A DNA stretch of 22,751 nucleotides, taken from IMG/VR virus record IMGVR_UViG_3300006917_002601, positions 1-22,751 of that record. One strand, 5' to 3'. Of this stretch, positions 3,770-21,255 are shown piece by piece. Within the stretch, counting starts at the first letter, position 1. The number at the start of each line of letters is the position of its first letter. This stretch comes from a virus. The notes beneath the pieces are model-generated. The model did not search any database. It saw only the letters and a program-made list of their open reading frames with translations, and had not been told where the DNA came from. The translations under genes were made by a program, and so were the position numbers.

Positions 3770-5335
3770 ATGGTCAGGCCGTCTCCGATCATGCGCGCGG
3801 CCAAGCAGGCGACGGCGCGCGTCGCGTCCGTGCCGGCGCCCATCGGCGGCTGGAACGCGCGCGACAGCCTCGCGAACATGAAGCCGACCGACGCGGTGTC
3901 GCTGACCAACTACTTCCCGACCGCGACCAACGTCGTGCTGCGCGGCGGCTACCAGAAGCACGCCACGGGCCTGCCCGGTCAGGTCGAGACGCTGATGGCG
4001 TACAACGGCGCCACGACGCAGTCGCTGTTCGCGATCTCGGGCAACAACATCTACAACGTGACGAGCGCGGGCGCGGTCGGCGCGGCGGTCGTGTCGGGCC
4101 TGACCAACAGCCGCTGGGAAAGCACGAACGTCGCCACCGCTGGCGGCAACTTCCTCTACGCGGTCTCGGGCGGCAACAGCCCGCTGCTCTACGACGGCTC
4201 GACCTGGACGGCGATCACAGGCGCCTCGACGCCTGCCATCACGGGCGTGACGACGAGCGAACTCGACAACGTCACGCTGTTCAAGAATCGCCTGTGGTTC
4301 ATCCAGCGCAACACGCTCAAGGCTTGGTATCTGCCCACGCAATCGGTCGGCGGCGCCGCACAGGTGCTGGACCTCTCGACGGTCGCGCGCAAGGGCGGCT
4401 ATCTGCTCGCGATGGGCGTCTGGACGATCGACGCGGGCTTCGGCCTCGACGACAACCTCGTCTTCGTCACGACGCAGGGCGAGATCATCATCTATCGCGG
4501 CACCGACCCGGCCAACATCTCGACGTGGTCGCTGGTCGGCGTATGGGCGATGGGCGCGCCGATGGGCAAGCGGTGCCTCGCCAAGTTCGCGGGCGACCTC
4601 GCCTACATCGCCTTCGACGGCCTGTTCCCGCTCTCGCAGGCGCTCCAGAGCGCGCGCGTCGCGCCGCAGAGCGTGGCGCTGACCGACAAGATCCAGGGCG
4701 CGTTCGCAAGCGCCACGACGGCCTATCAGGGCTTGTTCGGCTGGGAGATCTGCGTCGCGCCGAAGTTCAACGCCATCGTAGTGAACATCCCCGTCGGCAC
4801 CGGCTCGCAGCAGCAGTACGTGATGAACACCATCGTGCAGAGCTGGTGCAACTTCACCGGCTGGCCCGCCAACTGCTTCACGCTCCACAAGCAGGATCTG
4901 TGGTTTGGCGGCACCGACTACGTCGCCAAGGCGTGGACGGACGATCACGCGGACGACAACGTCGCCATCTCCGCTGGCGCGCTGCAGGCCTTCAACTACT
5001 TCGGCTCGCGCGGCCAGAAGAAGATCTTCACTCGGGCGAGGCCCAACCTGTTCGCGGACGGGCAGCCCTCGGTCTTCGTGGGCATCAACGTCGATTTCCA
5101 GACCAACGACACCTCGGCTCCGCTGGCCTATCTGCCGCCGACCGGCGCGGTCTGGGACACGGCGATCTGGGATAGCTCGAACTGGGGCGCGGGCCAGAAC
5201 ATCTCGCTGAACTGGCAGGGCGTCACGGGCGTGGGGTACTGCGGGTCGATCAACTTCCGCTCGGCCAGCAAGGGCCTGTCGCTGGAATGGGCCGCGACGG
5301 ACGTCGTCTTCATGCCGGGCTGGGTCGGCATATGA
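3770..5335 (+). CDS. P22 gp10-like tail hub / packaged-DNA stabilisation protein
   Basis: A 521-residue, beta-rich protein without signal peptide. It opens with PIGGWNARDSLANMKPTDAVSLTNYFP, a signature-like start of the family that forms the tail hub and closes the portal after packaging. Repeated short beta blades follow (LFAISGNNIYNVTSAG, FLYAVSGGNSPLLYDG, LVFVTTQGEIIIYRG, LAYIAFDGLFPLSQ, LWFGGTDYVAKAW), consistent with a beta-propeller-like body. The gene starts one base after the connector stop and its own stop overlaps the next start (ATGA), so the tail proteins are probably made in fixed ratio. A second in-frame ATG at 3791 is a possible alternative start. Confidence 0.72.
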   Translation: MVRPSPIMRAAKQATARVASVPAPIGGWNARDSLANMKPTDAVSLTNYFPTATNVVLRGGYQKHATGLPGQVETLMAYNGATTQSLFAISGNNIYNVTSAGAVGAAVVSGLTNSRWESTNVATAGGNFLYAVSGGNSPLLYDGSTWTAITGASTPAITGVTTSELDNVTLFKNRLWFIQRNTLKAWYLPTQSVGGAAQVLDLSTVARKGGYLLAMGVWTIDAGFGLDDNLVFVTTQGEIIIYRGTDPANISTWSLVGVWAMGAPMGKRCLAKFAGDLAYIAFDGLFPLSQALQSARVAPQSVALTDKIQGAFASATTAYQGLFGWEICVAPKFNAIVVNIPVGTGSQQQYVMNTIVQSWCNFTGWPANCFTLHKQDLWFGGTDYVAKAWTDDHADDNVAISAGALQAFNYFGSRGQKKIFTRARPNLFADGQPSVFVGINVDFQTNDTSAPLAYLPPTGAVWDTAIWDSSNWGAGQNISLNWQGVTGVGYCGSINFRSASKGLSLEWAATDVVFMPGWVGI

Positions 5336-13696: not shown

Positions 13697-14201
13697 GAAC
13701 TGGGGCGAGGCTTTCCGCGCGCTGCTGCGCCACGAAGGCGGCTTCGTCAACCATCCCCGCGACCCCGGCGGCATGACCAACCTGGGTGTGACGCGGCGCG
13801 TCTGGGAGGAATGGACCAGCCATCCCGCGAACGAGGCCGACATGCGCGGCCTGACGCCGGGCATGGTCGAGCCGCTCTACCGCGAGCGCTACTGGCGCAA
13901 GGTTCGCGGCGACGAGCTGCTAGGGGGCGTGGACCTCGCGGTCTTCGATTGCGCCGTCAACAGCGGGCCGGGGCGCGCGGCGATGTTGCTGCAGCAGGCG
14001 ATCGGCGTCTGGCCGGATGGCGTGATCGGGCCAAAGACGATGGCGGCGATCAAGGCGGCGGATGCGAAGGCGACCGTGGATCGGTTCTGCGACCTGCGGC
14101 TGGCGTTCCTGCGCGGGCTGCCGACATGGCCGACGTTCGGTAATGGCTGGGAGCGGCGCGTCGAGGATGTGAGGCGGCAGGCGAAGGGGATGGTGGGCTG
14201 A
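13686..14201 (+). CDS. Endolysin, GH108 lysozyme-like with peptidoglycan-binding domain
   Basis: A 171-residue muramidase-like enzyme that cleaves peptidoglycan glycan strands. The N-terminal motif RHEGGFVNHPRDPGGMTNLGVT (residues 15-36) carries the probable catalytic Glu17 and is the signature of glycosyl hydrolase family 108. Residues about 80-125 (VDLAVFDCAVNSGPGRAAMLLQQAIGV, DGVIGPKTMAAI) form the partner peptidoglycan-binding domain. There is no signal peptide, so it depends on the holin encoded just upstream. The GTG start at 13686 has AGGAG seven bases upstream, inside the holin gene. It is the last gene of the rightward late module and faces the leftward early operon. Confidence 0.88.
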   Translation: MAAENWGEAFRALLRHEGGFVNHPRDPGGMTNLGVTRRVWEEWTSHPANEADMRGLTPGMVEPLYRERYWRKVRGDELLGGVDLAVFDCAVNSGPGRAAMLLQQAIGVWPDGVIGPKTMAAIKAADAKATVDRFCDLRLAFLRGLPTWPTFGNGWERRVEDVRRQAKGMVG

Positions 14202-14227: not shown

Positions 14228-14757
14228 ACGCTCTCCGACCGCCGCAGCTGCAGCCATCGCGGCACGGTCGTGAAGGACTTGTCGCGGAACAGGACGCGGT
14301 TGGTCGGCTGGATGGTCAGGCGACCGCCATCGGTTCGCAGGAACATGAACTCCTTCGCCTGCGCCGGCGCGTGTGTGTAGGCGTCCCCGACCGGGATGGC
14401 CGTGAACAGGTATTCCGCGCCCAGCTCGGCGTCTGCCGCGCGCACGATCGCGCCGAGGCCGTCGAGGTAGTCGTAGGTGTGCAAGGAGAACTGCGAGCCA
14501 TAGCAGTCCCATTCCTGCGCGTCCTTGATCGTCCACGGATCGGGATCGGTGCAGAACGCCAGCGCGTGAGGCGGGAGGTCTCGGTAGACCGCGCCGCACT
14601 CGAGCAGCACCGTGCAGCCCCATGCGCGGCCAGGATGGCTGTGCAGGCCGAACCAGACCGCCGGGAACCACTCGTCGGCACCGAAGCCGATGAAGGCGCC
14701 GCAGACCGAAACGTATTGATGGCGTGGCAGGCTGCCGCTGGCCGTAAACAGCGTCAT
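14212..14757 (-). CDS. Hypothetical protein, last gene of the leftward early operon
   Basis: A 181-residue protein with no signal peptide or TM segment. It is rich in aromatic and acidic residues: GAFIGFGADEWFPAVWFGLHSHPGRAWG, AVYRDLPPHALAF, DPDPWTIKDAQEWDCYGSQFSLH and FLRTDGGRLTIQPTNRV. The pattern suggests a compact mixed alpha/beta enzyme or binding protein, but I recognise no family. ATG 14757 is chosen because it overlaps the stop of the 28-residue membrane peptide (ATGA) and no independent Shine-Dalgarno is seen; this pairing suggests the two are made together. Confidence 0.62.
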   Translation of the reverse strand: MTLFTASGSLPRHQYVSVCGAFIGFGADEWFPAVWFGLHSHPGRAWGCTVLLECGAVYRDLPPHALAFCTDPDPWTIKDAQEWDCYGSQFSLHTYDYLDGLGAIVRAADAELGAEYLFTAIPVGDAYTHAPAQAKEFMFLRTDGGRLTIQPTNRVLFRDKSFTTVPRWLQLRRSESVYSCE

Positions 14758-14840
14758 CGCAGCGCCATCGCGATCGTGATGGCCCACAAGGCGACGTAGC
14801 TCGTCACCGCTACCCACGCGGCGATGGTGCGGATGGTCAT
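14754..14840 (-). CDS. 28-residue single-TM microprotein
   Basis: The frame runs from ATG 14840 to TGA 14756-14754. A basic start (MTIRTIAAW) precedes about 18 hydrophobic residues (VAVTSYVALWAITIAMAL) and a final Arg, so almost the whole peptide is one membrane helix. A very strong Shine-Dalgarno (GGAGGAGGGA) lies a few bases upstream. Both ends overlap neighbours as ATGA. Such spacing and ribosome site are not expected by chance. A role in membrane perturbation or exclusion is possible, but nothing in the sequence proves it. Confidence 0.6.
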   Translation of the reverse strand: MTIRTIAAWVAVTSYVALWAITIAMALR

Positions 14841-15001
14841 CGTCCCTCCTCCGCTTCCACGACCACCAGCCCGGCGGCCTCGATCGCGTTGACCACCCGA
14901 ATCAGGAACGCCAGCCGATGCCAATCGACCGGGCAGTCGGGATCGGGTGCGTACTGGTAGAGAGCGCGGAACGCGCGGCGCGCGGCGACGGCGGGGGTCA
15001 T
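14837..15001 (-). CDS. 54-residue hypothetical protein
   Basis: A small protein starting in ATGA overlap with the methyltransferase stop and ending in ATGA overlap with the 28-residue peptide. It contains ARRAFRALYQYAPDPDCPVDWHRLAFL followed by a helix (VVNAIEAAGLVVVEAEE). It is predicted to be helical and soluble. The only support is the perfect coupling on both sides and the codon-like composition. The family is unknown. Confidence 0.55.
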   Translation of the reverse strand: MTPAVAARRAFRALYQYAPDPDCPVDWHRLAFLIRVVNAIEAAGLVVVEAEEGR

Positions 15002-16851
15002 CGTTCGCTCTCCACCGCAGCGATCCGCTCGCCCAGATACCGCATCACCGGCACGGCCATGCTGTTGCCAAGCGCCTTGTACCGGGGCCCGTCGGGGCAC
15101 TCGCTTGCGGGCCTGTTGCGCCAGGGGATTGCGGTGTACCCATCCGGAAACCCTTGCAGGCGCTCGCATTCAACGGGGGTCAGGCGGCGGACTTGCATTC
15201 CCTGCGCAGCGATGTCGCCCGGAAAGCCGGTTGTCTGGTTCGCGCCGACAGACAGCGTGTCGGCGGTTTCGCACGCCGCCGTAGCCAGAAACGTCTGCTG
15301 CTTCATGCCCGGCTCGGCGGCCAGCGCGCCGGCGACGCCAACCTCACGCACCTCGTCGCGCTGGTTCTGGGTGAAGGCGACCGCCATCTGCCCGCCGCCG
15401 TTCGCGTGGCTGCTGGCGTGGCCCATCGCTCGCAAGGTCGGAGCGATGTCGGACGCTGCATCGGCGCCGTGGTCCTTGCAGGAGAACGCCACCGCCACCG
15501 CCACCATGTGCCCGTCAGTCTGATGACCTGGGCTCAACGTCTGAGCGCCGCCGCGGCTTGACCGCGCCATGAGCGGCGGAACGGGGTCTTCAATCGCCAC
15601 CGCCACCGTTGCGACGCCGCCCTTCGACCCGCAGCCCAGCGCGTGCGTGGAGCCATCGGTTGACGATATGGGATCTTGCGTCGGATGGAAGGCCACCGGC
15701 ACCGCAACGGCGTGGACATCATGGCCGTGCATCGCGTTCAACGTGAACGAGGGGCCGTCTTCCTGCGCGACCGCATTGCCTTTGCTGCCCTGCATGTTGA
15801 TCATCGGCACCGGCACCATGACGGATGGGCCAGACCCGGTCGTCGTGGCGCCGCCAGTTGACAGCGTGGCCGCAACATCGCCGGTCAGCGCGCCGTTGTA
15901 GTGGTCGACTGCCACCGGCACCAGCGGCGTCCCGCGCCCCGTGCCGTCTTTCGAGGCGTCGAAGCCCTCGCCGCGCAGGGTGTGGGCGACGAAGGTCTCG
16001 CTCTCAAAGTCAAGACGCCCATGCGGCCCGCCATACGCGTTGCACGCCGTAGCAACGTCGATCGGCCCCGCCGTTTTGTTGCCGCCATAGGCAGCGATCA
16101 GCGCGCCATCTAGCTCTGCGTCGGTGCCGAGGCCGCCACCGCCTCGAGTGCGCGCCGCAAGGATAGGGGCAGTTCTTTTCCGCGCCGCTCGGCGCGGCGC
16201 AGGATGCCAGCGCATGCTTTCGATGACAGGTAGAAGCGCGTCGGCAGCGGCCCAGTTTCCAGCACCTGCGCGAGCGAGCACGAAGACCCGGCGCCGTCGT
16301 TGCGCCAGGCCGAAGAACTGGGCGTCCAATACGCGCCATGCGGCGCATCGGCTGGGTCCAGAAACCACGCCCGCGTCGGTCCAGCCTCGTCCTCGCGGCG
16401 GCTCGAGGGCGGCATCGCCGCCGACCAGTCCGCCCAAGAGCGAGCCGAAGGCGTTGTCTTTGACGCTGAGTAGACCGGGCACGTTCTCATAGACGACCCA
16501 GCAGGGCGCGCGTCCATCAGCGCGTCGAACAGCGTCGATTGCATCGGCAATCCTCACATAGGTCAGGGTCAGGTTCCCGCGCGCGTCGGAGAGCGAACCG
16601 CGCAGGCCGGCGACGGAGAACGCTTGGCACGGTGGCCCGCCGACGAGGATGTCCGGCGCCTCGACCTCGCGCGCGAGGATGCGCTCGGGCAGCGCGGTCA
16701 TGTCGCCCAGGTTCTCGACGCCCGGCCAGCGCGCAGCGATCACCGCGCTCGGGAAGGCCTCAATCTCCGAGACCCATGCCGCGCGCCAGCCGAGGCCGTG
16801 CCACGCAGCCGACGCGGCCTCGATGCCAGAGCAGACGGAGCCGAACCTCAT
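14998..16851 (-). CDS. DNA (cytosine-5-)-methyltransferase with enlarged, repetitive variable region
   Basis: A 617-residue enzyme that would transfer a methyl group from S-adenosylmethionine to C5 of cytosine in DNA. Motif I is FGSVCSGIEAASAAW (residues 3-17) and motif IV is GGPPCQAFS with catalytic Cys75. Motif VI is ENVPG (122) and motif VIII is QRRRRVFVLA (184). A motif IX-like RRLTPVECERLQGFPDGYT lies near 555 and motif X is LGNSMAVPVMRYLG near 595. All catalytic blocks are present. The region between VIII and IX is about 350 residues, much longer than a usual target-recognition domain, and consists of about six degenerate units with (V/A)AVAF and TL-x-G elements. Likely jobs are protection of phage DNA or self-marking. 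ATG 16851 overlaps the upstream membrane-protein gene (ATGA). Confidence 0.9.
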   Translation of the reverse strand: MRFGSVCSGIEAASAAWHGLGWRAAWVSEIEAFPSAVIAARWPGVENLGDMTALPERILAREVEAPDILVGGPPCQAFSVAGLRGSLSDARGNLTLTYVRIADAIDAVRRADGRAPCWVVYENVPGLLSVKDNAFGSLLGGLVGGDAALEPPRGRGWTDAGVVSGPSRCAAWRVLDAQFFGLAQRRRRVFVLARAGAGNWAAADALLPVIESMRWHPAPRRAARKRTAPILAARTRGGGGLGTDAELDGALIAAYGGNKTAGPIDVATACNAYGGPHGRLDFESETFVAHTLRGEGFDASKDGTGRGTPLVPVAVDHYNGALTGDVAATLSTGGATTTGSGPSVMVPVPMINMQGSKGNAVAQEDGPSFTLNAMHGHDVHAVAVPVAFHPTQDPISSTDGSTHALGCGSKGGVATVAVAIEDPVPPLMARSSRGGAQTLSPGHQTDGHMVAVAVAFSCKDHGADAASDIAPTLRAMGHASSHANGGGQMAVAFTQNQRDEVREVGVAGALAAEPGMKQQTFLATAACETADTLSVGANQTTGFPGDIAAQGMQVRRLTPVECERLQGFPDGYTAIPWRNRPASECPDGPRYKALGNSMAVPVMRYLGERIAAVESER

Positions 16852-17009
16852 CGCAAACCCGCCAACACAATCACCACCGCGCCCGTCACGACGCCGAGCA
16901 GAGCGAAGGCGAACCAGTAGACCGCCGCTCCCTGCCACCGCCGATCCTCGTCCATCCAAGCCAGCACATCCCTGCTGGCCTGGACGCGGCGCTCCTGCTC
17001 CTCGGTCAT
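16848..17009 (-). CDS. Small single-TM protein upstream of the methyltransferase
   Basis: A 53-residue protein. The N-terminal half is charged (MTEEQERRVQASRDVLAWMDEDRRW). Residues about 31-51 form one TM helix (YWFAFALLGVVTGAVVIVLAGL). AGGAGG lies eight bases before ATG 17009; an ATG two codons earlier (17015) is only two bases from it and less likely. The stop overlaps the methyltransferase start (ATGA). It is the first gene after the pentamer array. The function is unknown. Confidence 0.6.
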   Translation of the reverse strand: MTEEQERRVQASRDVLAWMDEDRRWQGAAVYWFAFALLGVVTGAVVIVLAGLR

Positions 17010-17026
17010 TTCCATTTCCTCCTTTT

Positions 17027-17344
17027 GCCTGCCTCACCGGGCCTTACCGGGCCTCACCGGGCCGTGCCGCGCCATGCCCTGCCTGCCTCGTTGTGCCATG
17101 CCACGCCCCGCCTGCCTTGCGCCGCCGCGCCGTGCCCGACCGTGCCCTGCCTGCTTTGCTTCGCCCTGCTGCGCCACGCCGCGCCATGCCGCGCCATGCC
17201 TGCCATGCCTTGCCCTGCAAAGCCGCTCCTTGCCTCGCCCCGCCCTGCCTCGCCTGCCTTGCCGTGCCCTGACGTGCCGAGCCGTGCCTCGCCGCGCCCT
17301 GCCTGCCATGCCCCACCACACCAAGCCCAACCACGCCTTGCCTT
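17027..17344 (-). repeat. Degenerate pentanucleotide tandem array, (RNGGC)n
   Basis: Read on the minus strand, the array starts inside the TAA stop of the upstream gene and ends about ten bases before the Shine-Dalgarno of the next. It is a continuous run of about 65 units of the form RNGGC (A/G, any base, then GGC). Seven units are shortened to AGGC, occurring roughly every 6-11 units. About 58 pentamers and 7 tetramers give exactly 318 bases. The GGC core is kept in most units while the second base varies freely. Because T is almost always followed by GG, all three minus-strand frames lack stop codons. It fills the only intergenic gap over 150 bases in the leftward operon. Its function is unknown. 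Confidence 0.88.
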
Positions 17345-17798
17345 ACCCGGCGCGCTTCTTGCGCTCGTTGCGCGCAAGAAACTTGTCGATGCTCGCGCGC
17401 AGCTCGTCGCTGGCGTCAAGCGCGTCGGCGTAGCGCAACAGCCGCGCTTGGACGCTTCGCAGGTCGGTCAGCAGATGCGCGATGACCGCCCGCGTCGCTT
17501 CCGGCGACGACTGCACCACCGAGACCGCGACGTACTCGCGCGATCCCCGATCGACGTTGAGGTATGCGCGCACAGGCGGCTCGTTCGGCTTGTGCGGCTC
17601 CAGATGAACGACCACGCGGCGGATCAGCCCGCGCGCCTGAAGCAGCCGATACTTCTCTGCAGCGTCGGCGTCGTCCCAATCGAACATCGAGTGCAGCGCC
17701 GAATTGGCGCTGCGTGCCCGATCCACGACTGCTTCTGGCGTGAGCTTGTCGCCAAGCTCGCTCGCCATCTCCTCCAGTTCACGCTCCCAGCGGGTCAT
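17343..17798 (-). CDS. Hypothetical early protein paired with the RAMP-like gene
   Basis: A 151-residue protein. An N-terminal helix (WERELEEMASELGDKLTPEAVVDRAR) is followed by ANSALHSMFDWDDADAAEKYRLLQARGLIRRVVVHL, a mixed strand segment (VRAYLNVDRGSREYVAVSVV) and long C-terminal helices ending KFLARNERKKRAG. The central motif of small residues, FxWDD and YRLxQARxLI is my impression of a recurring phage protein near recT genes, but I cannot name it. ATG 17798 overlaps the upstream stop by one base (TGATG), so the two are likely made together. The TAA stop is the first base pair of the pentamer array. Confidence 0.65.
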   Translation of the reverse strand: MTRWERELEEMASELGDKLTPEAVVDRARSANSALHSMFDWDDADAAEKYRLLQARGLIRRVVVHLEPHKPNEPPVRAYLNVDRGSREYVAVSVVQSSPEATRAVIAHLLTDLRSVQARLLRYADALDASDELRASIDKFLARNERKKRAG

Positions 17799-18427
17799 CA
17801 CGACACCACCTCGAAGGTGCCCCAGCCGAGCCCGTAGCTCTCGCGGCTGAACGGGCGACCCTCGCCGACGCCGATCTGCATCCCGGCGCGAGCCAGGAGA
17901 TTGGACACATCTCCGACCCGGAACTGATCGCCGTCCCAGCGCACCCGCAGCGTGGCGCTCCAGCGCCGGAACATCGGCCTGGAACGCAGGTCGGTCACGC
18001 CCGTCTGGTTTCGCGTCGCGGCGACGTGCTGCTCGTAGTCGCCGATGATCCGCACCAGCGGCTGTCCGCTGACGAGGTCGAGTCCGTCCGCCTCGACGAA
18101 GACGGACATCTTCGCCATCGTCATCTTGAAGCCGACCAGGCGGCAGGCATCGATCATCGCCGCGCGCCATGCCGACGCCGGAAAGCCGATGGTGCCATCC
18201 TCCAGGCGGTGCAACGCCGCCTCGCAGTCAGCCGCGAAGTCGCGCGCCTCGCGCTCCTTCTTCGACTTCGCCGTCGATCCGGCCTCGTGCTTCTCGCGCA
18301 TCTTCTGGCGCGCCTTCTCCGAGAAGGCGGCCATGACCAGCGGCGCGGTGCCGACGATCTCGAACTGCGCGCGCTCGAACTTCGGCGCGGCGATGGTGAC
18401 GATCTCTTGCTTCGTGAACGCGTTCAT
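17798..18427 (-). CDS. Phage protein with a possible RAMP (Cas7-like) fold, next to recT
   Basis: A 209-residue protein. It begins with a strand and EIVGTAPLVMAAFS (residues 24-36), then a Lys-rich segment (QKMREKHEAGSTAKSKKERE). GFPASAWRAAMIDACRLVG follows (81-99), then RSRPMFRRWSATLRVRWD. The C-terminal glycine-rich stretch AGMQIGVGEGRP and YGLGWGTFEV (181-207) resembles the G-rich loop of RAMP proteins (hGxGxxRP, then YGLGWGxFxh). If real, it is a single-stranded nucleic-acid-binding fold, which would suit a gene beside recT. GGGAGG lies five bases before ATG 18427. The fold call is my inference; no catalytic residues are visible. Confidence 0.6.
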   Translation of the reverse strand: MNAFTKQEIVTIAAPKFERAQFEIVGTAPLVMAAFSEKARQKMREKHEAGSTAKSKKEREARDFAADCEAALHRLEDGTIGFPASAWRAAMIDACRLVGFKMTMAKMSVFVEADGLDLVSGQPLVRIIGDYEQHVAATRNQTGVTDLRSRPMFRRWSATLRVRWDGDQFRVGDVSNLLARAGMQIGVGEGRPFSRESYGLGWGTFEVVS

Positions 18428-18441
18428 CTGAACCTCCCTTT

Positions 18442-19383
18442 TCAACCAGCCAGATCCGCCACCCGGCGGCGGCTCTCCTCCATGATGCGCTCATGCGCCT
18501 CGGGCGACGCGGCGCTGATGTCGTCGAGGTTGCCGCGCTGCGAGAGCATCACGCGGTCGATGTCCTTGACGCTCGCCGCCTTGCGGATCGCCGCGACGAC
18601 GGCGCGGGCGCGCTCGGCCAGCTCGGGAGAAAGTGCGCCGGTCGGGGCCTCTGGTGAGGAGGCTGCGGAGGGGGAAGGCTCCGCATCCGACGCGGCCGGC
18701 GCGATGTTGTCGGCCTCTTGTTCCACGTTGTCGAGCAGGGCGTCCATCGCGGCGCTGACGGCGGCGAGGGGGGTGGAGGGCGGGGGCGTGATGTCGCGCA
18801 TGGTCACGCTCGACGGCGCGGCGAGGTCGTCGTCGGCGTGGATGCCCAGCACGGCCTCGGGCATGTAGCGCCGCGCCCACTCGCGCGCACCGCGATAGGC
18901 CAGCATCTGGTCGGTGTTCTTCTTCCACTGCTCGTTGCTGGTCTTCCAGCCGCCGACCGTGCCGACGACCGCGCGCGGCGCGACGTCACCGATCAGCTTG
19001 CCCAGCACCGTGACCTGGCGCTGGTCACCAGCGCCGCTGTATTGGTAGTCGAGGCTGCCCTGCAGCTTGCCCGAGGCGTTCACGACGGCGGCGATCAGCT
19101 TGCCCTCGTAGCCAAGCTTGCCCGACAGCACGTAGGTGTGCTGCGCGACGGCGAACGGGTCCATGCGCCAGCGGAAGGCCTGCGCCGCGACGAGGAAACA
19201 ATCGCCCAGCTTGCCCTCGCCGCGCAGATGCGCGGGCGCGAGCGAGGCGCTCGACATCAGCTTCGCGACGCGCTGGAGCTGGCCGAAGATGTCGCTGTCG
19301 AGGTAGACGGCGACGGGGTCCGAGAAGTCCACGGCGACGGCGCGCGGCGCGGTGGCGGTCGGAAGGTTGGTGACGTTGGTCAT
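18442..19383 (-). CDS. recT: RecT-family single-strand annealing protein
   Basis: A 313-residue protein. The core (about residues 30-185) has the RecT pattern: IFGQLQRVAKLMSSASLAPAHLRG, DCFLVAAQAFRWRMDPFAVAQHTYVLSGKLGYEGKLIAAVVN and GGWKTSNEQWKKNTDQMLAYRGAREWARRYMPEAVLGI. RecT proteins coat ssDNA and anneal complementary strands during phage recombination. An acidic/Pro-rich linker (186-250) and a helical C-terminal domain (ELAERARAVVAAIRKAASV to the end) follow. It starts in ATGA overlap with the exonuclease gene, giving a classic RecE/RecT pair. An SD-like AGGGAG lies eight bases upstream of ATG 19383. The next gene is 14 bases away. Confidence 0.9.
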   Translation of the reverse strand: MTNVTNLPTATAPRAVAVDFSDPVAVYLDSDIFGQLQRVAKLMSSASLAPAHLRGEGKLGDCFLVAAQAFRWRMDPFAVAQHTYVLSGKLGYEGKLIAAVVNASGKLQGSLDYQYSGAGDQRQVTVLGKLIGDVAPRAVVGTVGGWKTSNEQWKKNTDQMLAYRGAREWARRYMPEAVLGIHADDDLAAPSSVTMRDITPPPSTPLAAVSAAMDALLDNVEQEADNIAPAASDAEPSPSAASSPEAPTGALSPELAERARAVVAAIRKAASVKDIDRVMLSQRGNLDDISAASPEAHERIMEESRRRVADLAG

Positions 19384-20249
19384 TTCGTATACTCCCTCTG
19401 GATGGATGCGTTGATCTCGTTGGCGGCCCACTGCGGCAGGCCGATTTCGACTACACCCGTGGTGTAACCCGTCCAGCTATCATCCGCAACGCTTTTCGCG
19501 AAGCGGCGCAGGATCTGGCGCAGCTGCTGGTCGGCGGCGCTCGCGGCGTCGGCGGACAGGGCGGCGACGTAGCCGAGGTGGGGCTCGTCGTTGCCGACGA
19601 CCGCGAAGCAATGCGTCGGGCGCTGGATGCCGAGCGTCGAGGCGACCAGCCGAAACATCGCGTCACCGAGGTCGTACCTGAGATTGGCGGCGGTCTTGCG
19701 CCAGGAGTTCGGCGCGGGCGACGCGGTGGTCTTCAGGTTCACCGCCAGCCCGGCGCGCGAGATGTAGAGGTCGGGTCGGCACAGCAGCGTGAGCCCGGTT
19801 TCCTCGTCCTTCGCGACCATCGTCACCTCGGCGCGACCGCCGGCCTCGAGCAAGCGGCGGGCGTCGGCGTTGCGCATGAGGCCTTCGCGCATTCCGACGA
19901 TCCGCATGTGGTCGGAGAAGCTGACGATCTGTCGATCGCCCTGTTCTTCGCGCCACGCCTTGCCCTCGCGGGTCGAGAGATTGAGCCCCTCGGGCTTGAC
20001 CGAGAAGCGCGCATGGAAGGCCTCGGCGCCCTCCAGGATGTAGCAGTGCGCGGCGGTCCCCAGCGCCATCGACGCGCTCGGCTCGCGGTGGACACGGGCC
20101 GGGTTGCCGCGCCAGAAGGCGTGAGCGTGGGCCGGGCATTCGGTCTCGTAGGCGACGAGGTCGCTGCCGCTGACCGCCGGAGCCGCGAAGGCCTCGGCGC
20201 TCAGGTACGCCTCGAACGAGACGTCGTTGTGGATGCCGTCGTTGATCAC
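19380..20249 (-). CDS. Exonuclease VIII-like PD-(D/E)XK protein with altered catalytic motif
   Basis: A 289-residue protein. SFEAYLSAEAF and SGSDLVAYETECPAHAHAF come near the N-terminus, and SMALGTAAHCYILE (60-73) holds the conserved His68. The nuclease block (139-175) is AEVTM with Glu141, CRPDLYISRAGLAVNLKTT with Asp160 and Lys173. The residue expected to be the second acid of the PD-(D/E)XK motif is Asn171. The nearest relatives are RecE/exonuclease VIII-type enzymes that resect dsDNA to make 3' ssDNA for RecT. The GTG start at 20249 has AGGGAG seven bases upstream and overlaps the previous stop (GTGA); no better ATG exists near the conserved start. Confidence 0.8.
   Translation of the reverse strand: MINDGIHNDVSFEAYLSAEAFAAPAVSGSDLVAYETECPAHAHAFWRGNPARVHREPSASMALGTAAHCYILEGAEAFHARFSVKPEGLNLSTREGKAWREEQGDRQIVSFSDHMRIVGMREGLMRNADARRLLEAGGRAEVTMVAKDEETGLTLLCRPDLYISRAGLAVNLKTTASPAPNSWRKTAANLRYDLGDAMFRLVASTLGIQRPTHCFAVVGNDEPHLGYVAALSADAASAADQQLRQILRRFAKSVADDSWTGYTTGVVEIGLPQWAANEINASIQREYTK
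19452..19466. promoter_or_regulatory. Third, perfect copy of the operator palindrome inside the exonuclease gene
   Basis: TACACC-CGT-GGTGTA is a perfect 6-3-6 palindrome with the same arms as O1 and O2. It lies about 70 bases upstream of the recT start, in coding sequence. It could be an intra-operon operator, a roadblock, or a coincidence. The match to the consensus is better than either promoter site. Confidence 0.3.
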
Positions 20250-20392
20250 TTGTCGATCTCCCTCTTCATCTGCCTGTGGACCCAGCCGCGCAGGGCCGCG
20301 AGGCGGCTCGCCTTCTTGCCGCGCGGGGCGTGGGCCGCGCGCTTGATCATGCTGCGGTAGACCCGCAGCAGCTTGCGCTTCTCGGTGGTCAT
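20246..20392 (-). CDS. Small basic protein before the exonuclease
   Basis: A 48-residue, highly basic protein (MTTEKRKLLRVYRSMIKRA, then HAPRGKKASRLAALRGWVHRQMKREIDK). Its 15 or so Lys/Arg residues suggest DNA or RNA binding. The start overlaps the previous stop (ATGA), and its TGA overlaps the GTG start of the exonuclease gene. The perfect coupling on both sides is the main evidence that it is real. The function is unknown. Confidence 0.6.
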   Translation of the reverse strand: MTTEKRKLLRVYRSMIKRAAHAPRGKKASRLAALRGWVHRQMKREIDK

Positions 20393-20568
20393 CGGTTGCC
20401 CTCCAGTTTGGCAAGATCACGCTCCAGCTCCGCGATCCGCTGATGCGCGAGCAGGTAGTCTAGACTGTGGGGATCAAGGTCGCGGGCCAGCTCGACCCGC
20501 AGGGCGATGCGAGCGCGCAGGACGCCGGGCGTCTGCGGGATCGCGGTGGCGGCGGGAAGGCGCTTCAT
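20389..20568 (-). CDS. 59-residue helical hypothetical protein
   Basis: ATG 20568 overlaps the TGA of the preceding 21-residue peptide gene. The peptide (MKRLPAATAIPQTPGVLRARIALRVELARDLDPHSLDYLLAHQ, then IAELERDLAKLEGNR) is a basic helix followed by a coiled-coil-like C-terminus. The stop overlaps the next start (ATGA). It is probably a small dimeric regulator or subunit, but no family is recognised. Confidence 0.55.
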   Translation of the reverse strand: MKRLPAATAIPQTPGVLRARIALRVELARDLDPHSLDYLLAHQRIAELERDLAKLEGNR

Positions 20569-20630
20569 GCCAGCACCATGATCGCAGCCAGGACGAAACC
20601 CATGAGGGCCTGCAGCCAGAGGGGGGACAT
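20565..20630 (-). CDS. 21-residue hydrophobic microprotein
   Basis: ATG 20630 overlaps the previous stop by one base (TGATG), and the TGA at 20565-20567 overlaps the next start (ATGA). The peptide is MSPLWLQALMGFVLAAIMV plus two residues, essentially one short TM helix. An SD-like AGGGGGGA lies about five bases upstream of the start. Its small size makes it the least certain member of the chain, but both joints have the genome's usual coupled form. Confidence 0.48.
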   Translation of the reverse strand: MSPLWLQALMGFVLAAIMVLA

Positions 20631-20935
20631 CAGCGGTCCCCCCTGAGCCAGTCGGGATAGTCGCCGTCGAAGGGCTCGGCGGGCGTCGCATCGTCGCGGA
20701 TGAAGCGCGCCGTGGGGTCGGTGAGCCGCTCGACGAGGATCTCGGCGTCGTAGAGGACGCCGCGCAACTCGCTCTCGGAGATGGCGCGGCAGTTGTAGTG
20801 CTGCTCGTTGATCTCCTCGACCTCCTGCGCGACCGCGCGCAGGATCGCCTCGATCTTGTCGTAGGCGGCGTGGCGCATCTCGTTGAGGCGCTCGACGCTG
20901 CGCTGCGCGTTGTCGATGTCCATGATCGCAGCCAT
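20630..20935 (-). CDS. Helical early protein, second gene of the leftward operon
   Basis: A 101-residue acidic, mostly helical protein (MAAIMDIDNAQRSVERLNEMRHAAYDKIEAIL, then RAVAQEVEEINEQHYNCR). It ends in a Pro/Asp-rich tail (DDATPAEPFDGDYPDWLRGDR). GGAGG lies about eight bases before ATG 20935, which is two bases after the previous stop. No known domain is seen. Early position and acidic charge would suit an interaction protein for a host target, but that is inference. Confidence 0.6.
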   Translation of the reverse strand: MAAIMDIDNAQRSVERLNEMRHAAYDKIEAILRAVAQEVEEINEQHYNCRAISESELRGVLYDAEILVERLTDPTARFIRDDATPAEPFDGDYPDWLRGDR

Positions 20936-20937
20936 GA

Positions 20938-21255
20938 TCAGCCCTCCATCTCGGCGTGGATCGCGCTTTCGGCGTGACAGGCCATCTCGACGACCATGTC
21001 CACCGCCTGGTTGGTCAGGTCCACGAACTGATCGCTGATCGCCTTGTCGGTCGCGGTGTTGCCGGCGCCGACGTTGTCGAGCTGTCGGTTGCAGATGTCG
21101 CGCAACCGGGTGATCGCGGCGATGATCTCGCGCTCGGCGCGAATCTTCGCGCACTCGATCGCGCGCAGCGCGTCGTCGGCGCTCTCGACGAAGTCGGCGC
21201 TGCGGATGAAGGTCTCGCCGCGCTCGTCGTCGTTGCGGTAGGTCATTATCGGCAT
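20938..21255 (-). CDS. Helical early protein, first gene of the leftward operon
   Basis: A 105-residue protein (MPIMTYRNDDERGETFIRS, then ADFVESADDALRAIECAKIRAEREIIAAITRLRDI), mostly alpha-helical with heptad-like spacing. AGGAGGGA lies six bases before ATG 21255, the best ribosome site of this operon, as expected for a first gene. About 40 bases separate ATG from the proposed pL start site. It is followed two bases later by the next gene. The family is not recognised. Confidence 0.62.
   Translation of the reverse strand: MPIMTYRNDDERGETFIRSADFVESADDALRAIECAKIRAEREIIAAITRLRDICNRQLDNVGAGNTATDKAISDQFVDLTNQAVDMVVEMACHAESAIHAEMEG

Follow-up and report, generated by a model that had tools for sequence, protein, structure and literature searches.

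Organisation of the leftward operon

The window analysed here is the complete 22,751-bp IMG/VR fragment of record IMGVR_UViG_3300006917_002601. Its minus strand carries a leftward operon running from about 21,255 to 14,212, in which profile matches placed an exonuclease VIII-like protein, a RecT-like protein, a cytosine methyltransferase and several uncharacterised proteins. The first gene, g105 (20938..21255), has the Shine–Dalgarno sequence AGGAGG and is followed by g101 (20630..20935), the microprotein gene sp21 (20565..20630), its usual 3′ neighbour g59 (20389..20568) and g48, which codes for a small basic protein (20246..20392). The exonuclease VIII-like protein (DUF3799; 19380..20249) and the RecT-like annealing protein (18442..19383) come next, then g215 (17798..18445; PHROG 4652) and g151 (17343..17798; PHROG 15946), both with no assigned function. 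A GCC-rich degenerate repeat array (17030..17342) separates g151 from the microprotein gene sp53 (16848..17009). Beyond sp53 lie the C5-cytosine DNA methyltransferase (14998..16851; PF00145, 3e-35), g54 for a small soluble protein (14837..15001), the microprotein gene sp28 (14754..14840) and g181, a 181-residue conserved phage protein (14212..14757; PHROG 3704, labelled ‘ferredoxin’). All of these genes are on the minus strand.

A gene with sub-threshold YdaS/Cro similarity diverges from the leftward operon, and a RusA-type nuclease gene lies further along the strand of that gene. Because of its gene content (RecT, exonuclease VIII) and this divergence, the operon is probably early in type. 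A sigma-70 scan of the region did not find a promoter.

The lysis genes, coding for a three-helix GTA-type holin and a GH108 endolysin, occupy the strand opposite to the microprotein operon. Lysis regulation typically uses small single-span proteins, and the lysis cassette ends at 14201, close to the sp28 end of the operon, so the microproteins might be lysis-timing (antiholin-like) proteins. However, the cassette has a holin and an endolysin of its own on the other strand, and the microprotein genes belong to the recombination operon; holins and antiholins are encoded with the lysis cassette, which was the case for none of sp28, sp21 and sp53. We consider a role in lysis timing very improbable.

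Several neighbours showed features of their own. The Pfam domain of the methyltransferase was matched at both ends of the protein, with a long, low-complexity-looking stretch in the middle. The repeat array spans about 300 bp in degenerate GCC-rich units of 5–10 bases; similar arrays were seen 5′ of sp53 in about eight other relatives, and recT lies directly there in others. The g181 family is present in many viral contigs, and phage records name it PurM, phosphoribosylaminoimidazole synthetase or ferredoxin. As the Pfam and NCBIfam searches gave no match to g181, the PurM/ferredoxin-type names look doubtful. A nucleotide search with the region returned a 71-bp methyltransferase stretch as its sole match.

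The three microprotein genes

The sp28 gene codes for a predicted single-span product of 28 residues, MTIRTIAAWVAVTSYVALWAITIAMALR. It overlaps g54 upstream and g181 downstream, by ATGA in each case, and its start is preceded by GGAGGAGGGACG, with GGAGGAGGG as the Shine–Dalgarno sequence. The predicted single-span product of sp21 has 21 residues, MSPLWLQALMGFVLAAIMVLA. Its gene is joined to g101 upstream by TGATG and to g59 downstream by ATGA, and its ribosome site is G-rich and non-canonical. The sp53 product, 53 residues long and also predicted to be single-span, is MTEEQERRVQASRDVLAWMDEDRRWQGAAVYWFAFALLGVVTGAVVIVLAGLR; its N-terminal half is charged and its single transmembrane helix is C-terminal. 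This gene has an ATGA overlap downstream only, with the methyltransferase gene, and its 5′ side faces the GCC-rich array. It has its own ribosome site, AAAGGAGGAAATGGAA (AGGAGG), at normal spacing. A 55-residue version of sp53 starting at 17015 was rejected, as this start is too close to GGAGG, and 53 residues is the right length.

All three ORFs were found exactly where the original prediction had placed them, with the ATGA and TGATG junctions that it described, and the strong ribosome sites it had assigned to the 28- and 53-residue genes were recovered at sp28 and sp53. Stop–start overlaps (ATGA or TGATG), the mark of coupled gene pairs, were present at every end of the three genes in the window except the upstream end of sp53. 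The usual minimum of gene callers is 90 nt. The genes of 87 and 66 nt, sp28 and sp21, fall under this minimum and are easily missed by annotation, as had been proposed; the 162-nt gene could be called.

Evidence for coding

Related IMG/VR loci were collected via RecT, g181 and g59 and with a profile of each microprotein. There were 34 distinct alleles of sp53 (the search rows include L062, an unrelated acidic protein), 33 of sp28 (row L057 ends at the contig end) and 24 in the sp21 slot. Frame-disrupting changes in relatives, named beforehand as the observation that would count against the genes, were looked for, and not one allele had a frameshift or an internal stop. Allele lengths differed in frame only, with start and stop conserved. 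The ORFs were intact in 100% of the homologous segments (19 for sp28, 15 for sp21 and 24 for sp53), whereas 20 control ORFs of similar size in other frames of the same operon were intact in a mean of 46% of segments.

Chance ORFs are plentiful in such GC-rich DNA: 134 ORFs of at least 20 residues overlap the 12.5–22.7 kb region, and one of the 20 controls was also fully intact. However, an origin by chance is scarcely credible for three ORFs that are intact in all segments, change length in frame, keep their starts and stops and show substitutions of the coding type.

Substitution events were counted by parsimony on neighbour-joining trees. For sp53 there were 65 synonymous and 46 nonsynonymous events, giving an omega of about 0.24 (p = 7e-14). 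Clade A of sp28 showed 27 synonymous and 32 nonsynonymous events (omega about 0.43, p = 0.0014), and sp21 showed 14 of each (omega about 0.36, p = 0.007). A synonymous excess was absent from the event counts of sp28 clade B (5 alleles). All-pairs pN/pS values for sp28 (0.81) and sp21 (1.07) were indistinguishable from column shuffles; this measure is uninformative for the two shortest ORFs, probably because deep clades are mixed in it. Judged by these substitution patterns, the signature of coding is decisive for sp53 and moderate for sp28 and sp21. Taken with the frames, sp53 is almost certainly a real coding gene, sp28 very probably one and sp21 quite probably one.

Predicted membrane helices and the conserved faces of two

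Maximum Kyte–Doolittle hydrophobicity in a 17-residue window was 1.88 for sp28, 2.30 for sp21 and 2.73 for sp53. Small single-span membrane proteins have been described as products of ORFs of 60–180 nt with one hydrophobic helix of 15–30 residues (PMC10903887). All three microproteins have this size and such a helix, and are conserved in other genomes. The AlphaFold2 model of sp53 is a single helix over residues 3–52, with a mean pLDDT of 83 that reached 96–97 in the membrane half. It is likely that the three microproteins sit in a membrane.

Conservation along the helix was periodic in two of them. The best angle for sp28 was 100 degrees (p = 0.0096; clade A, 0 of 5000 shuffles) and for sp53 105 degrees (p = 0.0092). 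The corresponding test gave no periodicity for sp21 (p = 0.59), which keeps its hydrophobic character without a conserved face. Both sp28 and sp53 conserve specific residues on one face beyond hydrophobicity, including Y15 and W19 of sp28 and the GxxxG motif of sp53 (G39, G43); among 31 sequences this motif was missing only where divergence was greatest. These faces suggest specific helix–helix contacts and not a general alteration of the membrane. Self-association of sp28 or sp53 could explain the face pattern equally well.

The microproteins resemble the YohP-type small membrane proteins (PMC7549839, PMC12719787), which have about 27 residues, a single membrane helix and no catalytic domain. 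Production of YohP lowers the membrane potential (PMC12719787), and the microproteins might likewise be unspecific membrane-active peptides lowering membrane potential or fluidity. Their size and hydrophobicity match those of E. coli YohP (27 residues), and in sp21 the hydrophobicity is conserved but no helix face is. A generic peptide would accept any hydrophobic exchange, but sp28 and sp53 keep their one-face residues (Y15, W19, GxxxG), and we regard an unspecific membrane activity as unlikely. The genes described here also differ from YohP in being chained by overlaps in a phage operon of early type, and sp28 differs in having a conserved helix face; relationship in sequence was gauged through the family libraries, which gave no match.

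Exchange of neighbouring genes

Families F6, F8, F10, F13 and F17 are clusters made from the neighbouring genes in this analysis. Among relatives, sp53 was preceded by recT, in many cases with a 4-base overlap, by a repeat array or by the small-gene family F8, and was followed by the methyltransferase, F6, F17 or g54-like genes. Downstream of sp28 we observed g181, F10 (which by eye resembles AlpA-type regulators), F13 or others. The downstream overlap of sp28 and sp53 was almost always the same four bases, ATGA. As the neighbours are swapped and the ATGA overlap is nearly always kept, sp28 and sp53 are cassettes and not leaders of one gene.

ATGA pairs were translationally coupled in 13 of the 14 cases tested (PMC6728339), and the junctions here have the same geometry as those ATGA/TGATG termination–reinitiation pairs. 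The linked units differ, being membrane genes of 21–53 codons, and two of these genes exchange their neighbours. The small ORFs could be coupling spacers that carry ribosomes to the next gene, with an incidental peptide. Such a role would fit the ATGA/TGATG joins at almost every end, the near-constant position of g59 directly after sp21 and the weak all-pairs synonymous signal of sp21 and sp28. It would also fit the ends of the two shorter genes: the last codons of sp21 are almost identical in DNA even across clades, so part of this conservation may serve the ribosome site of the next gene, and in sp28 the tail varies together with the gene that follows. However, the cores of sp28 and sp53 are kept before several different downstream genes, the omega of sp53 is low, the helix-face periodicity is a pattern at the protein level, and hydrophobicity is not required of a spacer. 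We consider a spacer role rather improbable.

A hydrophobic microprotein was found directly upstream of g59, or one gene off, at 55 of 57 distinct g59 loci; 45 of the 55 were sp21-like and 10 were a 27-residue version that replaces it. Overlapping gene pairs often code for subunits of one complex (PMC10666635), and the microproteins could be anchoring or assembly subunits for adjacent soluble phage proteins. This possibility is strongest for sp21 with g59, and for sp21 a role tied to g59 is as possible as the docking considered below. In one clade, however, a different, 64-residue gene stands between g59 and the sp21 homologue, MHLVFAALMGATIAAIMVLA, which is chained to it, and sp28 and sp53 swap partners freely. 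Overall, we consider a role in anchoring or assembly unlikely.

Families, hosts and known systems

Searches of PHROGs, Pfam, NCBIfam and PADLOC gave no match to sp28, sp21 or sp53. Annotated phage records searched with sp53 gave no match either, and a second profile scan gained no more distant relatives of it. The prediction of hidden membrane microproteins in an early operon was borne out in that the three are real, conserved genes for hydrophobic, predicted single-span microproteins in the leftward recombination (early-type) operon, absent from the family libraries searched.

One case was cellular. On a contig of an alphaproteobacterial MAG, the genes g59 and sp53, a homologue of g181 and an AlpA-like gene are followed by phnD/phnE-like genes, the latter identified by our own reading. 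The contig is apparently an integrated prophage, with a binning or assembly error as the alternative. A search of 385 sampled genomes from the MAG's class added no further sp53.

The lambda CIII gene lies near recombination genes. CIII, an inhibitor of FtsH (PMC1838920), is like the microproteins a small helical membrane-associated polypeptide of a temperate phage, but its helix is amphipathic, shows coiled-coil features and does not span the membrane. The CIII family model gave no match to the three microproteins in PHROGs, Pfam and NCBIfam. The exclusion proteins HK97 gp15, Tuc2009 Sie2009, TP-J34 Ltp and P22 SieA (PMC10883804), which lie in the inner membrane, are also small and phage-encoded. 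SieA, however, is a prophage-expressed protein of 162/164 residues that crosses the membrane three times, whereas the microproteins here have 21–53 residues, one predicted segment and a place in a recombination operon. Models of superinfection-exclusion families (PHROGs, Pfam, NCBIfam, PADLOC) did not match them. Lambda CIII, HK97 gp15 and P22 SieA may serve as functional models, and we claim no membership in their families.

Proposed role of the microproteins

The results suggest that the three are conserved small membrane proteins of phages, of which at least two would dock onto membrane proteins. We infer expression, membrane insertion, docking, its target and its benefit as follows. The leftward early-type operon would be translated with the finishing ribosome restarting at the ATGA/TGATG overlap of most junctions, and the products would be inserted in the inner membrane as single-span microproteins. 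With ATGA at its start and (A)TGA at its end, an sp28 or sp53 cassette could be swapped between neighbours and leave the chain unbroken. Through its conserved helix face, each of these two products would dock on a further membrane protein, most probably one of the host, and this docking might tune host takeover, lysogeny control or the exclusion of other phages. The sp21 product may dock in the same mode or be tied to g59.

The explanation as a whole, with three genuine phage single-span membrane microproteins of which sp28 and sp53 are exchangeable cassettes docking on a membrane partner, has in our judgement an even chance of being right. Whether sp28 and sp53 work through partner docking is likewise finely balanced. 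A host protein as partner, with takeover or exclusion as the benefit, is a tentative suggestion. It is more speculative still, and rather doubtful, that early-type operons of these phages hold interchangeable membrane-helix cassettes bounded by overlaps, each docking on a particular host membrane protein. If this were true, the sp21 slot and the 22- and 23-residue peptides of relatives would be further members, the swaps would follow changing hosts or competing phages, and the set would be a miniature counterpart of the anti-host gene islands of phages.

Few parts of phage genomes are as poorly annotated as their very short membrane genes. The present loci add three families absent from the libraries searched, with several lines of coding evidence: frames against a same-operon control, substitutions and, for two of them, face periodicity. 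The conserved faces supply concrete residues to mutate or use as bait, by which the partners of early phage membrane peptides become testable.

Further peptides and a contig with two sp53 regions

Related loci contained other small hydrophobic peptides. A further chained one, MREVHWLMLVMSALLIALGLFM, was observed at 5007–5075 of locus L129 and occurs at a few loci only. Another hydrophobic ORF codes for 23 residues, MVLGWQDFVVIGIIVWALLDGRR, and has a GGAGG site; it lies at 1287–1359 of L164 (reverse strand) and was also present in L165, L170 and L182. In these relatives it belongs to the opposite operon, which runs rightward, and in some it is joined by ATGA to a gene of 224–279 or more residues; its position in the sibling contig falls past the end of our window. 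Finally, contig IMGVR_UViG_3300042906_001042 (38.9 kb) carries two differing copies of the sp53 region near its opposite ends (L021/L118 and L033/L116); this might reflect the joining of two related phages or a tandem arrangement.
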